From a virus: 41,778 nt of DNA. The notes beneath the pieces are model-generated. The model was not told where the DNA came from, ran no database searches, and saw only the letters and a program-made list of their open reading frames with translations. The stretch's first letter is position 1. Every line of letters starts with the position of its first letter. The stretch covers positions 1 to 41,778 of the IMG/VR virus record IMGVR_UViG_3300028563_000035. One strand, written 5' to 3'. This document shows positions 27,175 to 41,327 of the stretch, in pieces. The position numbers and the translations under genes are program-made.

Positions 27175-29460
27175 TTAATTCTCCCCATCTAACGCAACGC
27201 TGCCGCCAGCAGCGCTCTCCAAGCCCTCCCAGTAGTCGTTACTGAGAGCGGCTGACGATAAGACATACGCGCCGGTTGCATACGACTGCGAAATCACGAC
27301 CTGGGTCCCTTTTGGGGCATTGCGCGCGTGTTCAACCGTCAGGCGGGCTAAGCCCCGCTTCGCCTCCTCGTCAGTCTGACTATACGTCAAAACCGTGTCA
27401 GCCGTAAAAACCTTGCTGATGTCCTCTGTCACGTCAGTACTGCTGACCCGCTTGGCACCAATGCTGGACCGGCCTGATTGTGTGGGAGTTACTAAAGCGA
27501 GATTACGCTCGACCGCTAAGCCCCGCAGCTCCACAAAGATGCGCCCCAAAGCCAAGCGGAAGTCGGTAGTTCCTATGCGAAAAAGGTCCGGGTAGTCTAC
27601 GATTAACACGGTAGGAATGAACTTCTGCGTAAGCTCCAGGTAGTCCAAGTACCCCTTGAGCTGGGAAACTGTCAGCGTACCTGAAGGAAATGCCTTGATC
27701 ACAAGGCGGCCAAACCTTGCGCCCCAGAGCTTAACCTTGTTCCTGAGAATCTTTCGGATTGAGGGGTCACCAAAATCAAGGCGGGGGCGGACTCTTCGAG
27801 ACTTGAAGCTGATCAATCGCCCAAGGTCATCCAACTCCAAGGTAGTCTTGACAAATTGGTCGTCTCTTGTCGCAATCCCAAAGAAGCTCTGGTAGTATCT
27901 TCCGAGTACCTCTTCCTCTGACATCTCAAGGCTGACGTGAACCACACGCTGCTTTTGCAGCAACGCCTGCTTTCCAACGTGAATGCAGTACCAAGATTTT
28001 CCTGAGTTATGTACGAAAACCCCGTTTGCCACGAAGTTGTTCGTGCGAATGACACTTAAGTCATAAACGTCACGAGCCCCAATCTTTTCAATTGAGACTA
28101 CTCCATGGTTCTGGATAAAATGCCCTTTCTCGTTTCTGAGCCTTTTCTTAGCAACCTCAGAGCACGCTTTCGATATCTTCCGTCGCACCTTCTTGCTGTG
28201 GTTTTTACCCTTCATCCCTTTAGGGTGAATACCCGTAATCCTCCAACCCGCCGTGCCCTCCTTATTGCGCTCGCCCAGATGGTAGCTTGCATGCTCCCGC
28301 GCCTCCATCCACTCAAGATTATCTGTGTTACTGTTATTCCGATTATGGTCTTTGTGGTGAGCAAAATCTCCCTCACGAGGAGGGCCGTAAAGCTGCTCAC
28401 ATATAAAACGATGCTCTCCTTCTCCCAAAGAGGGAGAACCAGTCCAACTTATGTTTGAATAGGCAAAAGCTGGCTTACCCGAAGATCGACGATAGAGAGA
28501 CTTAAGAGAATCTCCTGGCTTAAGCTCTCCAAGCTTTCTCCAAGTACCATCAGAAAGAAGAACAAGATGTTCATAAGTGCCAACAAGCTCCAATGGGGGT
28601 AGGTATTTTGCACGTACTGTTCCTCCCCCACGACGACCCGTCTTTTGACGCAACTTAGCATCAAGTCGAATACGATAAACAGGAGCGCGTCCTACCTTCC
28701 AGACCTCAGACACCCAAGACAAACACGGACGGTCTTTTTCAAAATCCCAACTGTAGGTCCAAAATTGCTTGCCCACCAAATCTTTAATCGGAATCCCTTG
28801 CGGGTAGTCCGTCAGATTACGAGGGCAGTCAATGAGAGTGTCTTCAACAAGACAGTTTTTCGGAGCAATGTAAAGCAATTGACGCTTGGCCACTGGGCCT
28901 ATTCCGAGATGATCCAGCTCTGGAATATTTAAGGTAATATTGCCTTCTTCACGCTCCTGGAAAACCGAGGACTTCTCAACATCCTTGAGGAACGTACCTG
29001 CATCCAGCGTATGCTGACGGAACCGCAAGGCATTGTTGAGAATACCCTCAACCTCTGAGACCGCCTCCTCACCGCCTTGCAGGTAGCGCTCATTGGCCTC
29101 TAGAAGAGCGGTCTTGAGCTGTTGTGCCCTGACAAAGTCTTGCGTACGGGAGACAACGTACTCAGCATTGACCGCCTCCGCCTGTGCAGAGAGGTTGACC
29201 AACGTTCGCCTAAGCAGGTGCGTCTTGCGGTCGCTGGGGTCTAGCTTGGCCCGGGAGAAGAGCTGCTCCAGGTGGGCAGCGCCGGGAGGCTTACCAAACT
29301 TGCGGCGGTACTCAATGACCGGAGCGGCGATCTCATGATAGACGCCTGAGAAGTGCTCTGGCTGGACCTGTGCAGCCACCAGCGCGCCGTGCTGGGCGTT
29401 GAACGCCAACACCGCCAGGACAGACTCTTGCAGCGCTTCGGTGAGGGGTTCTGACGCCAC
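27175..29460 (-). CDS. DnaB-like replicative helicase with HNH intein
   Basis: This replicative helicase is encoded as a 761-residue precursor. The N-terminal 200 residues are the DnaB-type helical domain. Walker A is split: YIAPKN, intein, SGKSW. The RecA-like domain continues with RVVHVSLEMSEEEV (the DnaB-type SLEM motif) and VLIVDYPDLFRIG (Walker B). Removing the 283-residue intein leaves about 478 residues, normal for DnaB-like proteins. The start is GTG 29460. Without splicing the P-loop is destroyed, so helicase production depends on intein activity. Confidence 0.9.
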   Translation of the reverse strand: MASEPLTEALQESVLAVLAFNAQHGALVAAQVQPEHFSGVYHEIAAPVIEYRRKFGKPPGAAHLEQLFSRAKLDPSDRKTHLLRRTLVNLSAQAEAVNAEYVVSRTQDFVRAQQLKTALLEANERYLQGGEEAVSEVEGILNNALRFRQHTLDAGTFLKDVEKSSVFQEREEGNITLNIPELDHLGIGPVAKRQLLYIAPKNCLVEDTLIDCPRNLTDYPQGIPIKDLVGKQFWTYSWDFEKDRPCLSWVSEVWKVGRAPVYRIRLDAKLRQKTGRRGGGTVRAKYLPPLELVGTYEHLVLLSDGTWRKLGELKPGDSLKSLYRRSSGKPAFAYSNISWTGSPSLGEGEHRFICEQLYGPPREGDFAHHKDHNRNNSNTDNLEWMEAREHASYHLGERNKEGTAGWRITGIHPKGMKGKNHSKKVRRKISKACSEVAKKRLRNEKGHFIQNHGVVSIEKIGARDVYDLSVIRTNNFVANGVFVHNSGKSWYCIHVGKQALLQKQRVVHVSLEMSEEEVLGRYYQSFFGIATRDDQFVKTTLELDDLGRLISFKSRRVRPRLDFGDPSIRKILRNKVKLWGARFGRLVIKAFPSGTLTVSQLKGYLDYLELTQKFIPTVLIVDYPDLFRIGTTDFRLALGRIFVELRGLAVERNLALVTPTQSGRSSIGAKRVSSTDVTEDISKVFTADTVLTYSQTDEEAKRGLARLTVEHARNAPKGTQVVISQSYATGAYVLSSAALSNDYWEGLESAAGGSVALDGEN
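28006..28854 (-). mobile_element. Intein with HNH homing endonuclease
   Basis: The intein spans residues 203-485 of the helicase precursor (283 residues). It starts CLVEDTLIDC and ends GVFVHN before Ser+1. GTYEHLVLLSDG is the block B-like region. The middle holds an HNH endonuclease (FAHHKDHNRNNSNTDNLEW), so this element can probably both splice and home. The insertion point inside Walker A is a classic conserved target for inteins. Confidence 0.92.
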
Positions 29461-37567: not shown

Positions 37568-37636
37568 AAGGCGAAACGGCGCTAGTTTTTGAGCGCCGTC
37601 TCCGGCTGTTTAGGCAATCCGGATTGATAAGCCAGC
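37568..37636 (+). ncRNA. Type II hammerhead ribozyme 1 (variant core)
   Basis: Order is GGC, GAA, stem III ACGGCGCT/AGCGCCGT, cleavage base C37600 (GUC), stem I TCCGG/CCGGA, then TTGATAA and GCC. The core differs from CTGATGA at two positions: C3 is U and G8 is A. These two bases pair with each other in the active fold, so the change keeps a pair (U-A for C-G). G5, A6, U7 and A9 are kept. It sits 6 nt before the CCATAGGAGA leader of the next gene. Confidence 0.75.
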
Positions 37637-37659
37637 CTAACCCATAGGAGAGCATGACT

Positions 37660-37869
37660 ATGACCTTAGAGCCGAAAATCTTTGCAGCCGCCGATGCCAA
37701 GCTTCGCATCAGAGGCAGCTTCACCTACAATGATATTGAAGAAGTGCTCGGTGAAATCTACAAAGTTGGCGACGACAAGCCAACCATTGAAGACGATGAA
37801 ATGCATGAAATGGTGAGCGAACTTCACCAGCACTACGTGGATTTGAAGCTCGTCAAAGAGGGCGAGTAA
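37660..37869 (+). CDS. Small acidic hypothetical protein
   Basis: The 69-residue product starts MTLEPKIFAAADAK. ATG 37660 is chosen over ATG 37654, because its 9-nt spacing from AGGAG matches the other genes of this operon. It is acidic (TIEDDEMHEMVSEL). No family is recognised. Ribozymes lie both immediately upstream and immediately downstream. Confidence 0.6.
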   Translation: MTLEPKIFAAADAKLRIRGSFTYNDIEEVLGEIYKVGDDKPTIEDDEMHEMVSELHQHYVDLKLVKEGE

Positions 37870-37876
37870 ACTAGTC

Positions 37877-37943
37877 AAGGCGAAACGGCTTCACACTTAC
37901 TTTGAAGCCGTCGCAGCGTAACCGCGCTGCCTGATGAGCCTAA
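37877..37943 (+). ncRNA. Type II hammerhead ribozyme 2 (canonical)
   Basis: All core parts are present: stem II AGGC/GCCT (open), GAA, stem III ACGGCTTCA/TGAAGCCGT (9 bp), cleavage triplet GTC with C37912, stem I GCAGCG/CGCTGC, and CTGATGA (37931-37937). The predicted cut is between 37912 and 37913, leaving a stem-I hairpin at the 5' side of the next message. The CCATAGGAGA leader follows 2 nt after the ribozyme. Confidence 0.93.
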
Positions 37944-37961
37944 TCCATAGGAGATACAGCG

Positions 37962-38156
37962 ATGCGCCTTCCCAAAGGTTTCAAAAAGAGGCCAATCACC
38001 AACGAGAACCTAGAGCTTCTCAAGAAGGCTTGGGAGCTCCCCGACGATGAGTTCGCAACTGACGCTGAAGCTTGGAAGTCCATCCCGGAAGAGGAAGGCT
38101 GGACCCGCCAAGCCACAATGGGCACCGTTATGGACTGGATGGCTGGCCCTCCTTGA
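37962..38156 (+). CDS. Small hypothetical protein
   Basis: The 64-residue product starts MRLPKGFKKRPIT, with AGGAG 8 nt upstream in the shared CCATAGGAGA leader. ELLKKAWELPDDEFATDAE looks like a helical domain and GWTRQATMGTVMDWM closes it. No family is recognised. Confidence 0.6.
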   Translation: MRLPKGFKKRPITNENLELLKKAWELPDDEFATDAEAWKSIPEEEGWTRQATMGTVMDWMAGPP

Positions 38157-38167
38157 GGTTCAAAATC

Positions 38168-38263
38168 ATGCTTAAATCCTTCCTCTACGGCCTGTGCGAG
38201 TTCGCCTCAATCTCGCTTAGCCTCGCCGCGTTGTTTGTGTTCCTTGCACTTTACGCCACCTGA
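38168..38263 (+). CDS. Tiny membrane protein
   Basis: A 31-residue ORF, MLKSFLYGLCEFAS start, is hydrophobic over most of its length (SISLSLAALFVFLALYA), a single membrane span. GAGG stands 9 nt upstream. It forms a pair with the preceding gene between ribozymes 2 and 3. Confidence 0.55.
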   Translation: MLKSFLYGLCEFASISLSLAALFVFLALYAT

Positions 38264-38265
38264 AA

Positions 38266-38338
38266 CTGCCGAAACGCCGCTTGACCTGAGAGCGGCGTCG
38301 TTGCTTCGCCTAGTCCACGAGCAGCCTGATGATGGCAC
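38266..38338 (+). ncRNA. Type II hammerhead ribozyme 3
   Basis: Core: TGCC, GAA, stem III ACGCCGCT/AGCGGCGT, GTC with C38299, stem I GTTGCT/AGCAGC, CTGATGA (38326-38332), then T and GGCA. Stem II (TGCC/GGCA) forms only with one extra T after A9, a mild departure from the consensus that could slow cleavage. The CCATAGGAGA leader follows about 16 nt downstream. Confidence 0.85.
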
Positions 38339-38369
38339 GGACTGAACCTGAATCCATAGGAGACTACAA

Positions 38370-38552
38370 ATGGCTACTCGCTTATGTCCTTGCGGCTCAG
38401 GCAAAGAGTCGTTTTGGCAAAATGATGCTCGTGGCATTCCACTCTGCCGAACATGCACCAAATGTCACCGCGAAAAGATGAAGCGTTACCGACCGGAGGT
38501 TCTGACCAATCCCAATTACTATGCTGATGAACCCATTGAGGACGCGTCATGA
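38370..38552 (+). CDS. SEC-C-like small zinc protein
   Basis: The 60-residue product begins MATRLCPCGSGKES, the CxCGSGK start of SEC-C zinc motifs, followed by CRTCTKCHREK with further cysteines. It would bind zinc and perhaps nucleic acid. AGGAG lies 7 nt upstream in the shared leader. Its stop overlaps the next start (ATGA). Confidence 0.65.
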   Translation: MATRLCPCGSGKESFWQNDARGIPLCRTCTKCHREKMKRYRPEVLTNPNYYADEPIEDAS

Positions 38553-38881
38553 AAGAAACCTATCCAGCCCCCAAAGCGGGGCGCACACGCCACCTGAGCG
38601 TTGTCGCTAGCAACGCCGCGCGCACAGCGGAGTATGGTGACTCGCTGGCTGCATTCGAAGAGCGCATTTTCCGAGGCGCGATCTGCTTCAACGTCGTGCG
38701 ATTCGGAGTTCCTGCCGGATCGGAATGCCAGACCACCGATAGCTTTCCACGCGCTCTGTGGTTGGCACACCAACAGCCAAGAACGCTGATCTATGTTGTG
38801 TCTAGCGACGGACGGGCGTTCTGCATGTCGCACAAGGACTACGGCAAGTTCGCCCTCATTTGGCAGGAGACGCACAAATGA
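38549..38881 (+). CDS. Hypothetical phage protein
   Basis: The 110-residue product, MKETYPAPKAGRTR start, is coupled to the preceding gene by ATGA. TLIYVVSSDGRAFCMS and YGKFALIWQE suggest a beta-rich domain. No family is recognised. Confidence 0.55.
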   Translation: MKETYPAPKAGRTRHLSVVASNAARTAEYGDSLAAFEERIFRGAICFNVVRFGVPAGSECQTTDSFPRALWLAHQQPRTLIYVVSSDGRAFCMSHKDYGKFALIWQETHK

Positions 38882-39108
38882 CTGACGACAACGAAGCTTG
38901 GTCGCCAACAGCGCTAGTCGTATGTAAAGTTTGCCAATTGTTTTGGCTAGTTTTCGTGCTTAGTGGATGCACCTACATCGTGTTTTGGATGAATCAGCAC
39001 GGTGCTTGGTACGTACTTGCAGTTCTACTTTGTTGTAGCGATTGTAAAGCATACCGCTCCCCAGCACAGATCCGAGAGTGGGCCAAACTACCCAAAGACA
39101 GCCAATAA
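38878..39108 (+). CDS. Membrane protein with flanking CxxC pairs
   Basis: The 76-residue product starts MTDDNEAWSPT at ATG 38878, overlapping the upstream stop. Two hydrophobic segments are bracketed by CKVC and CCSDC, which could pair to bind a metal on one membrane face. The reading from 38860 is inside the upstream gene. Function is unknown. Confidence 0.6.
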   Translation: MTDDNEAWSPTALVVCKVCQLFWLVFVLSGCTYIVFWMNQHGAWYVLAVLLCCSDCKAYRSPAQIREWAKLPKDSQ

Positions 39109-39116
39109 TCTGCGCA

Positions 39117-39177
39117 AGGCCGAAATGGCCGGGCAATCCCCGGCCATCCGAGCGTGATGCGCTCGCTGATGAGGTCC
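39117..39177 (+). ncRNA. Type II hammerhead ribozyme 4 (canonical, ATC site)
   Basis: Stem II GGCC/GGTC (one G-T), GAA, stem III ATGGCCGGG/CCCGGCCAT (9 bp), cleavage triplet ATC with C39148, stem I CGAGCG/CGCTCG, and CTGATGA (39166-39172). The predicted cut is between 39148 and 39149. It fills the gap before the DUF932 gene, whose CCATAGGAGA leader is at 39197-39206. Confidence 0.92.
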
Positions 39178-39212
39178 AGTCCTGCACCTTATGCTTCCAT
39201 AGGAGACTGACA

Positions 39213-40261: not shown

Positions 40262-40294
40262 TGAGGCGCGTATGGTTGAGCTGTACGCGCCTCA
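40262..40294 (+). other. 11-bp perfect hairpin containing a promoter-like motif
   Basis: TGAGGCGCGTA and TACGCGCCTCA form a perfect 11-bp stem. GCGTATGGTTGA (40268-40279), a near match to the GCGTATGTTTGA motif, lies in the 5' arm and loop. This gap lacks a hammerhead, unlike the preceding ones. The hairpin may be a terminator, RNase site or regulated promoter. Confidence 0.55.
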
Positions 40295-40334
40295 AGCTTT
40301 GCTTTCTACAGAAACCCCATAGGAGAGAACGACA

Positions 40335-41192
40335 ATGGAAATCCAGATTACGGAACCGATGGTTACCAAGTTGCTGACAGTTGTGGACGCAGGCCTTGTG
40401 AAAGGCGTTGGCATTCCACAGCCCGGCCAGATGTGTGTCGAAGCGGCAGTGTGCTACGCGCTTGATTTGCCTCACGGCGACGACCCCGGCTGCGTTGCGC
40501 AATCACTGCGTAACCTCAAAATCCGCCTGAACGACTCCAACTGGTCGTCCAATGAAGCCCGTGCTAAGGGGCTGCGGCGGCTGGCGGTTGTCCAGCTTGG
40601 TAGTCTTGGTCATCTTGACGAGAAGGCGTTTGTCGCAAAGCTGGTTGACTACGCTATTCGCGTTTCCACACCACAGGCTTTGAGAGCCGCTGCGTCTGTC
40701 CATAAGGACGAGAAGCATAAGGCAGCTTTGTACGAAGCAGCGAACCGTTGTGAGAAGGAAGGAACGCGAGAAGCCGCTAAGGCAGCGAAGACTGCTGCTG
40801 CTTATGCTTATGCTTATGTTGCTGATGCTGCTTATGCTGCTGATGCTGCTGCTGATGCTGCTGCTGCTGCTGATGCTGCTGCTGCTTATGCTGCTGCTGC
40901 TGCTGCTGATGCTTATGCTGCTGATGCTTATGATGCTGCTGCTGCTGCTTATGCTGCTGCTGCTGCTGCTGATGCTTATGCTGCTGATGCTTATGATGCT
41001 GCTGCTGCTGCTGATGCTTATGCTGCTGATGCTGATGCTTATGCTGCTGATGCTTATGATGCTGCTGCTGCTAGAAATGCGGCCCGCGACAAAGCTCTTT
41101 CCGACTACGCGGAGGTCGTTGTTCAAATGCTGATCGAGCTGAAGGCCCCTGGCTGTGCGTGGCTTTGGATGACTGAGCAGACGACTGCATAG
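40335..41192 (+). CDS. Phage protein with Ala/Asp/Tyr repeat domain
   Basis: The 285-residue product has a conserved N-terminal domain (PGQMCVEAAVCYALDLPHG, then KIRLNDSNWSS, then LRRLAVVQLGSLG), then about 90 residues made almost only of Ala, Asp and Tyr, then a folded end (DKALSDYAEVVVQM). Homologous phage proteins with similar low-complexity tails are familiar to me,  function unknown. The repeat is probably a long helix. ATG 40335 has AGGAG 9 nt upstream. Confidence 0.7.
   Translation: MEIQITEPMVTKLLTVVDAGLVKGVGIPQPGQMCVEAAVCYALDLPHGDDPGCVAQSLRNLKIRLNDSNWSSNEARAKGLRRLAVVQLGSLGHLDEKAFVAKLVDYAIRVSTPQALRAAASVHKDEKHKAALYEAANRCEKEGTREAAKAAKTAAAYAYAYVADAAYAADAAADAAAAADAAAAYAAAAAADAYAADAYDAAAAAYAAAAAADAYAADAYDAAAAADAYAADADAYAADAYDAAAARNAARDKALSDYAEVVVQMLIELKAPGCAWLWMTEQTTA
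40796..41072 (+). repeat. GCT/GAT/TAT codon-repeat tract
   Basis: The tract is built from GCT, GAT and TAT codons in irregular order, with longer direct copies such as ATGCTTATGCTGCTGATGCT repeated several times. The nearly exclusive use of one codon per residue indicates growth by slippage or unequal recombination at the DNA level. Confidence 0.9.
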
Positions 41193-41327
41193 GCTATAAC
41201 TTGAACACTGAGTACGGCGGTCGAGTGGGACAGCGTTTTAACCTTTCGCGTTTTCCCCTCTCCTATGGAAGGAGCCGCCCGGACCCTTTCCGTGCATCCG
41301 GGCATTTGATTTTGGAGAACTAAAGCT
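41193..41327 (+). other. Intergenic region with leader-complementary 10-mer
   Basis: The 135-bp gap contains TCTCCTATGG (41259-41268), the exact reverse complement of the CCATAGGAGA leader used by five upstream genes. It is followed by a GCCCGGA/TCCGGGC hairpin (41277-41303). The next gene uses a different ribosome-binding site (TTTGGAGAAC). No hammerhead core is seen. Confidence 0.6.

Follow-up and report, generated by a model that had tools for sequence, protein, structure and literature searches.

We find four type II hammerhead ribozyme motifs in a virus record of 41,778 bases from IMG/VR (the whole of this stretch is referred to below as the window), which lie in the same direction within 1.6 kb and bound a succession of gene blocks. 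Our preferred interpretation is that these are genuine hammerheads which probably partition the message of an operon into separately stabilised block mRNAs, in the manner of the engineered insulator RiboJ. The anatomy of the motifs, their positions, the block structure that they follow and the recurrence of such motifs in other phages are features of the sequence itself.

Identification and anatomy of the four hammerheads

A descriptor following the type II order (stem II, GAAA, stem III hairpin, NUH, stem I hairpin, CUGANGA, stem II) was run on both strands of the 41.8 kb record, and returned exactly four motifs, all on the + strand, with no fifth on either strand. Their scores ranged from 16 to 23, versus 12 and 14 for the best matches in 60 dinucleotide-preserving shuffles of the genome, which yielded 0.03 motifs per window (two weaker chance matches in total). 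An initial annotation had placed four such motifs in successive gaps at the same coordinates, and the C17 positions that it predicted (37600, 37912, 38299 and 39148) are identical in the descriptor output. PaP3 and Bcep176, intended as positive controls, gave no descriptor match; both are listed as core variants by Perreault et al. (2011, PMC3088659), and since core changes of this kind are not accepted by the descriptor, it undercounts variant hammerheads.

When the Rfam model RF02276 (Hammerhead_II) was applied in E-value mode to the interval 37.0-39.8 kb, it recovered the same four motifs and nothing else, with 32.5 bits for HHR1, 27.4 for HHR2, 21.5 for HHR4 and 20.0 for HHR3. The covariance check suggested in the initial annotation was borne out in part: all four motifs are ranked by the model, but all four fall below its gathering cut-off of 37 bits, at which Rfam returns nothing in the whole window. 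A whole array can, as here, slip under the Rfam cut-off. An independent covariance model (R1), built from 11 equal-length hammerheads of other viral contigs only, found all four in a scan of the window (HHR2, 49.2 bits, E 4.7e-11; HHR4, 44.1 bits, E 1.1e-9; HHR1, 36.5 bits, E 1.3e-7; HHR3, 22.7 bits, E 6.5e-4), the next best match having an E-value of 0.2. Given these E-values and the outcome of the shuffles, the four motifs are real and not products of chance. The two models, RF02276 at sub-threshold scores, strongly support their identification with this type of ribozyme, the type II hammerhead, and we assign them to this structural class from their sequences, an assignment made without Rfam curation.

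GAAA and the A15.1-U16.1 pair are present in 4/4 motifs, and the NUH site (with H17) is GUC in three and AUC in one, as had been described; the stem III lengths of 8, 9, 9 and 9 bp (HHR1 to HHR4) likewise agree with the 8-9 bp claimed. The CTGATGA-like strand attributed to every motif is CUGAUGA in HHR2, HHR3 and HHR4, with an extra U between A9 and stem II in HHR3, and UUGAUAA in HHR1, so that the description held only partly. In HHR1 the change is a double exchange of C3-G8 to U3-A8 which preserves the 3-8 pairing, and this covariation is found in nature, with in vitro activity cited by Perreault et al. 2011 (PMC3088659). The statement that stem sequences differ completely was too strong, as AAGGCGAAACGGC...GCCGTC is common to HHR1 and HHR2. 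Minimum-energy folds show the type II arrangement for HHR2 and HHR3, and the minimum-energy fold of HHR1, computed without a pseudoknot, is not a hammerhead.

A tertiary contact between the loop of stem I and the 3' tail is common, although not universal, in type II hammerheads. Possible pseudoknots of this kind comprise 6 bp in HHR1 and 6 bp, including one G-U, in HHR3, with shuffled-loop P-values of only 0.04 and 0.07 respectively. No such pseudoknot was found in HHR2, where a stem I of 7 bp carries a small apical loop, or in HHR4, and both belong to a small-loop class of stem I. In a set of 66 small-loop hammerheads, window members counted, the apical heptamer seen most often is GUGAUGC, that of HHR4. 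Because HHR2 and HHR4 lack the pseudoknot and HHR3 scores weakly, some of the four ribozymes may be slow.

Gene blocks and their shared leader

Each hammerhead is followed by an exact copy of CCATAGGAGA, 3-20 nt downstream (Table 1), confirming the leader reported at 2-20 nt. The genes behind these leaders form four blocks. Single-gene and two-gene RNAs had been proposed; blocks of one and two genes do exist, and they are followed by one of three genes and then by the DUF932 gene. Hammerheads precede the first block and occupy the next three non-coupled junctions and 0/3 coupled junctions, the junctions within blocks being ATGA overlaps or a gap of 11 nt. The leader shows the same distribution: it precedes five first-of-block genes, 0/3 coupled genes and 0/19 of the leftward genes inspected, with approximately 0.04 sense copies expected by chance. 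Some 20-36 nt separate each hammerhead from the start codon of its block, and the predicted cut falls 49-70 nt before that codon. The window would present a ribozyme-based partition as a repeated cassette of ribozyme, shared leader and coupled gene block.

Table 1 Hammerheads, leaders and gene blocks of the rightward operon (all + strand); hammerhead positions count the paired bases of stem II
Feature	Positions	Strand	Details
HHR1, type II hammerhead	37570..37633	+	stem II GGC/GCC; stem III 8 bp; GUC; C17 37600; stem I 37601-37623; core strand UUGAUAA (U3-A8) 37624-37630
HHR1, putative pseudoknot	37610..37640	+	loop I UUAGGC 37610-37615 / tail GCCUAA 37635-37640
CCATAGGAGA leader	37642..37651	+	after HHR1; Shine-Dalgarno of 37654 gene
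Block 1, 71-aa ORF	37654..37869	+	no family match
HHR2, type II hammerhead	37878..37941	+	stem III 9 bp; GUC; C17 37912; core CUGAUGA
CCATAGGAGA leader	37945..37954	+	after HHR2
Block 2 gene 1, 64-aa ORF	37962..38156	+	
Block 2 gene 2, 31-aa hydrophobic ORF	38168..38263	+	11 nt past previous stop; different RBS
HHR3, type II hammerhead	38267..38337	+	stem II UGCC/GGCA; stem III 9 bp; GUC; C17 38299; core CUGAUGA; extra U 38333 between A9 and stem II
HHR3, putative pseudoknot	38311..38344	+	loop I UAGUCC 38311-38316 / tail GGACUG 38339-38344
CCATAGGAGA leader	38354..38363	+	after HHR3
Block 3, three ORFs with ATGA overlaps	38370..39108	+	38370-38552 (60 aa), 38549-38881 (110 aa), 38878-39108 (76 aa)
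HHR4, type II hammerhead	39118..39176	+	stem II GGCC/GGUC; stem III 9 bp; AUC; C17 39148; stem I apical GUGAUGC; core CUGAUGA
CCATAGGAGA leader	39197..39206	+	after HHR4
Block 4, DUF932 protein, 344 aa	39213..40247	+	PF06067 E 8e-40; phrog_1221
Plain 15-bp hairpin	40262..40294	+	without hammerhead core; precedes fifth leader
Fifth sense CCATAGGAGA leader	40317..40326	+	precedes 40335-41192 gene

At the fifth boundary a strong terminator-like hairpin lies ahead of the leader, as if replacing the ribozyme. The gene that follows (40335-41192) encodes a protein of 285 aa with a long Ala-Asp-Tyr repeat, for which the coding sequence is a degenerate tandem repeat (40792-41072), and has no family match. 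In the gap after this last leader gene, CTCTCCTATGG (41258-41268, + strand; the single antisense leader copy is at 41259) is an exact antisense of the leader, an 11-mer expected about 0.001 times in this 4.3 kb, and its transcript could pair with all five leaders. A different observation concerns three other phage loci (L143, L169 and L201), in which CCATAGGAGA or CATAGGAGA directly adjoins stem II and the CCA of the leader can pair with a loop I UGG; a pseudoknot strand that became joined to a Shine-Dalgarno sequence may be the origin of the shared leader.

The operon runs rightward from approximately 37.57 kb, and the leftward genes of the record include a terminase, a DNA polymerase, helicases and a thymidylate synthase. 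A search upstream of HHR1 gave no convincing sigma-70 promoter, the one match in the region (2.3 expected) lying inside the first gene. Among sequenced bacterial genomes, the nearest terminase relatives found are in Bradyrhizobium and Aureimonas (42-44% identity), and an alphaproteobacterial host is therefore likely. A nucleotide search of phage records detected no relative, and a query with the 110-aa protein likewise detected none. Most phages that carry related DUF932 (60-74% identical) or terminase genes have no hammerheads: none was found near the four DUF932 genes or in 12 of 13 relative records. Consequently, the array is not needed for the DUF932 or terminase genes and looks like a lineage-specific addition. 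Elsewhere in the record, in the terminase large subunit (526-2646, -), residues 184-319 or thereabouts look like a mini-intein (Intein_splicing E 4e-8, under the Pfam cut-off) that the relatives L219, L221 and L223 lack; the gene for a DnaB-like helicase (27175-29460, -) harbours an intein of the HNH-endonuclease kind (Intein_splicing E 1e-11; HNH_3 E 5e-7); and the end of the record (1-206) carries 17 copies of a 12-bp repeat (GGCTGTAGAGCT).

Type II hammerheads in other phages

One exact pattern, applied without any requirement for stems, matched at least 120 stretches in viral contigs, and among the matches listed stems III and I both form in 98 of 129 unique instances, versus 0.4 when spacers are shuffled. 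This stem-blind test replaces a covariation count on our set A2, which was rejected as circular given that pairing was already a requirement of the descriptor used to choose its members. The descriptor itself identified 252 unique motifs in the collected viral loci, window included. A one-base insertion after A9 of the HHR3 type is carried by 35 of these 252 (U in 33, mostly with stem II GCC), and the extra U of HHR3 therefore looks like a recurrent natural variant. Where a ribosome-binding site could be identified (189 phage hammerheads), the median distance to the downstream start codon is 24 nt (IQR 21-28).

Large arrays occur in the Streptomyces phages Janus (NC_054660) and phiELB20 (NC_041849), in which the descriptor finds 11 and 10 type II hammerheads respectively over approximately 8 kb, most of them above the RF02276 cut-off. 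No ribozyme feature appears among the annotated features that we viewed in the two records. An incomplete literature search found no report of hammerheads in Streptomyces phages, and we do not claim that these arrays are unreported. Of the gaps of at least 50 nt, 10/10 in Janus and 9/11 in phiELB20 (19/21 together) contain a hammerhead, versus 0/23 of the shorter junctions; this rule is partly forced by size, because a gap below 50 nt is too small for a 60-nt motif, yet the size limit does not account for the near-complete occupancy of the large gaps. As in the window, most independently translated genes have a ribozyme some 20-30 nt ahead of the start codon, whereas the copies are more numerous than our four and the CCATAGGAGA leader is absent.

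Probable processing of the operon message and its significance

The array is best read as processing a polycistronic message, for which there is a direct precedent in prophages. Tandem type II hammerheads were described in 2011 from prophage operons of Agrobacterium tumefaciens (the ardA triple array), Azorhizobium caulinodans and Clostridium scindens, and self-cleavage of tandem prophage hammerheads was demonstrated both in vitro and in E. coli (Perreault et al. 2011, PMC3088659); 4 of 18 consensus hammerheads were inactive in vitro in the same study (PMC3088659). Those arrays likewise place several hammerheads beside single genes or short blocks of a phage operon, and processing of long transcripts was proposed for them, so the present array is not new in kind. 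It differs in that its four members share one ribosome-binding leader and clearly match the blocks of translational coupling, and in that it is known from sequence, whereas cleavage was assayed in the earlier work. To this the present analysis adds the coupling-block rule, a leader common to the blocks, the small-loop class and, as test systems, the arrays of the Streptomyces phages.

By analogy with such systems, each hammerhead would fold as the polymerase passes and cut the transcript 3' of C17, leaving an upstream fragment that ends in the stem III hairpin with a 2',3'-cyclic phosphate and a downstream fragment that starts with the stem I hairpin and a 5'-OH, the end chemistry known for the hammerhead class and presumed for this phage. 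The long message would in this way become separate mRNAs of 1-3 coupled genes, with hairpins at the processed ends and a standard leader, and the blocks would be free to differ in stability and translation. Cleavage, stabilisation and insulation in the present phage are what we infer, and the arrangement would be a natural counterpart of RiboJ, a hammerhead-derived insulator which raises transcript level approximately twofold in E. coli (PMC6206723). RiboJ also sits upstream of the ribosome-binding site, where it shortens the leader so that a 5' hairpin remains (PMC6206723), a role that position suggests for the present hammerheads; it was, however, engineered from a plant satellite RNA and is used as a single copy after a promoter. 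Other natural comparisons are less close. The hammerhead of the lytic haloviruses HF1/HF2 (HHphage) likewise directly precedes a start codon, lying 13 nt ahead of an early helicase gene, and has a mapped transcript 5' end near its cleavage site (PMC3088659), but it is reported as a single copy with a core insertion in an archaeal virus. The HDV-like theta ribozymes of gut phages are also phage-encoded self-cleaving RNAs, but are reported to have another fold and to be tied to tRNA-based recoding (PMC10879173).

Several alternative hypotheses may be weighed against partition of the message. The main gain could instead lie in end chemistry, with hairpin ends bearing 5'-OH or cyclic phosphate evading host RNases such as the 5'-monophosphate-dependent RNase E, rather than in the separation of genes. 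The type II architecture does put a hairpin on either side of the cut, and the increase in transcript level with RiboJ (PMC6206723) would fit, yet protection alone leaves the placement at block boundaries unexplained; we regard it as unlikely to be the main gain, and it is compatible with partition as an accompanying effect. Less likely still, the ribozymes could be regulated, with a ligand or condition altering folding or cleavage and so switching access to the ribosome-binding site. Perreault et al. propose possible regulation of slow phage variants (PMC3088659), and our hammerheads are only 3-20 nt from the leader, but their short loops offer little space for an aptamer, and cleavage hardly alters the predicted accessibility of the Shine-Dalgarno sequence, either in the window or in 110 further phage cases (Wilcoxon p 0.12). 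The same near-constancy led us to reject simple masking of the Shine-Dalgarno sequence by the ribozyme.

It is very improbable that the motifs are non-functional or selfish relics, duplicated and tolerated in gaps. The existence of relatives without hammerheads and the 5' half common to HHR1 and HHR2 speak for such an origin; however, the cores are intact, with the compensated U3-A8 exchange, all four motifs are on the sense strand, their stems vary yet remain paired, and spacing is similar in the arrays of unrelated phages. Finally, that these are plain terminators or attenuators resembling hammerheads by chance is scarcely credible, despite the terminator-like hairpin before the fifth leader, given a full core with three stems, E-values down to 5e-11 and 0/4 hammerheads among terminator-like sites, and we have dropped a terminator reading for the four hammerheads while retaining it for the hairpin at 40262.

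If partition by ribozymes is accepted for the window, it may, more tentatively, represent a general layer of expression in many phages, with one hammerhead per translationally independent block acting co-transcriptionally in place of internal promoters, terminators and RNase processing; we consider this possible without yet favouring it. The positional rule, that is, hammerheads at non-coupled junctions and at a near-fixed distance from the start codon, together with the cultured Streptomyces phages, makes the role of tandem phage hammerheads, a question raised in 2011, directly testable. If confirmed, such partition would provide a natural precedent for the ribozyme insulators of synthetic biology.
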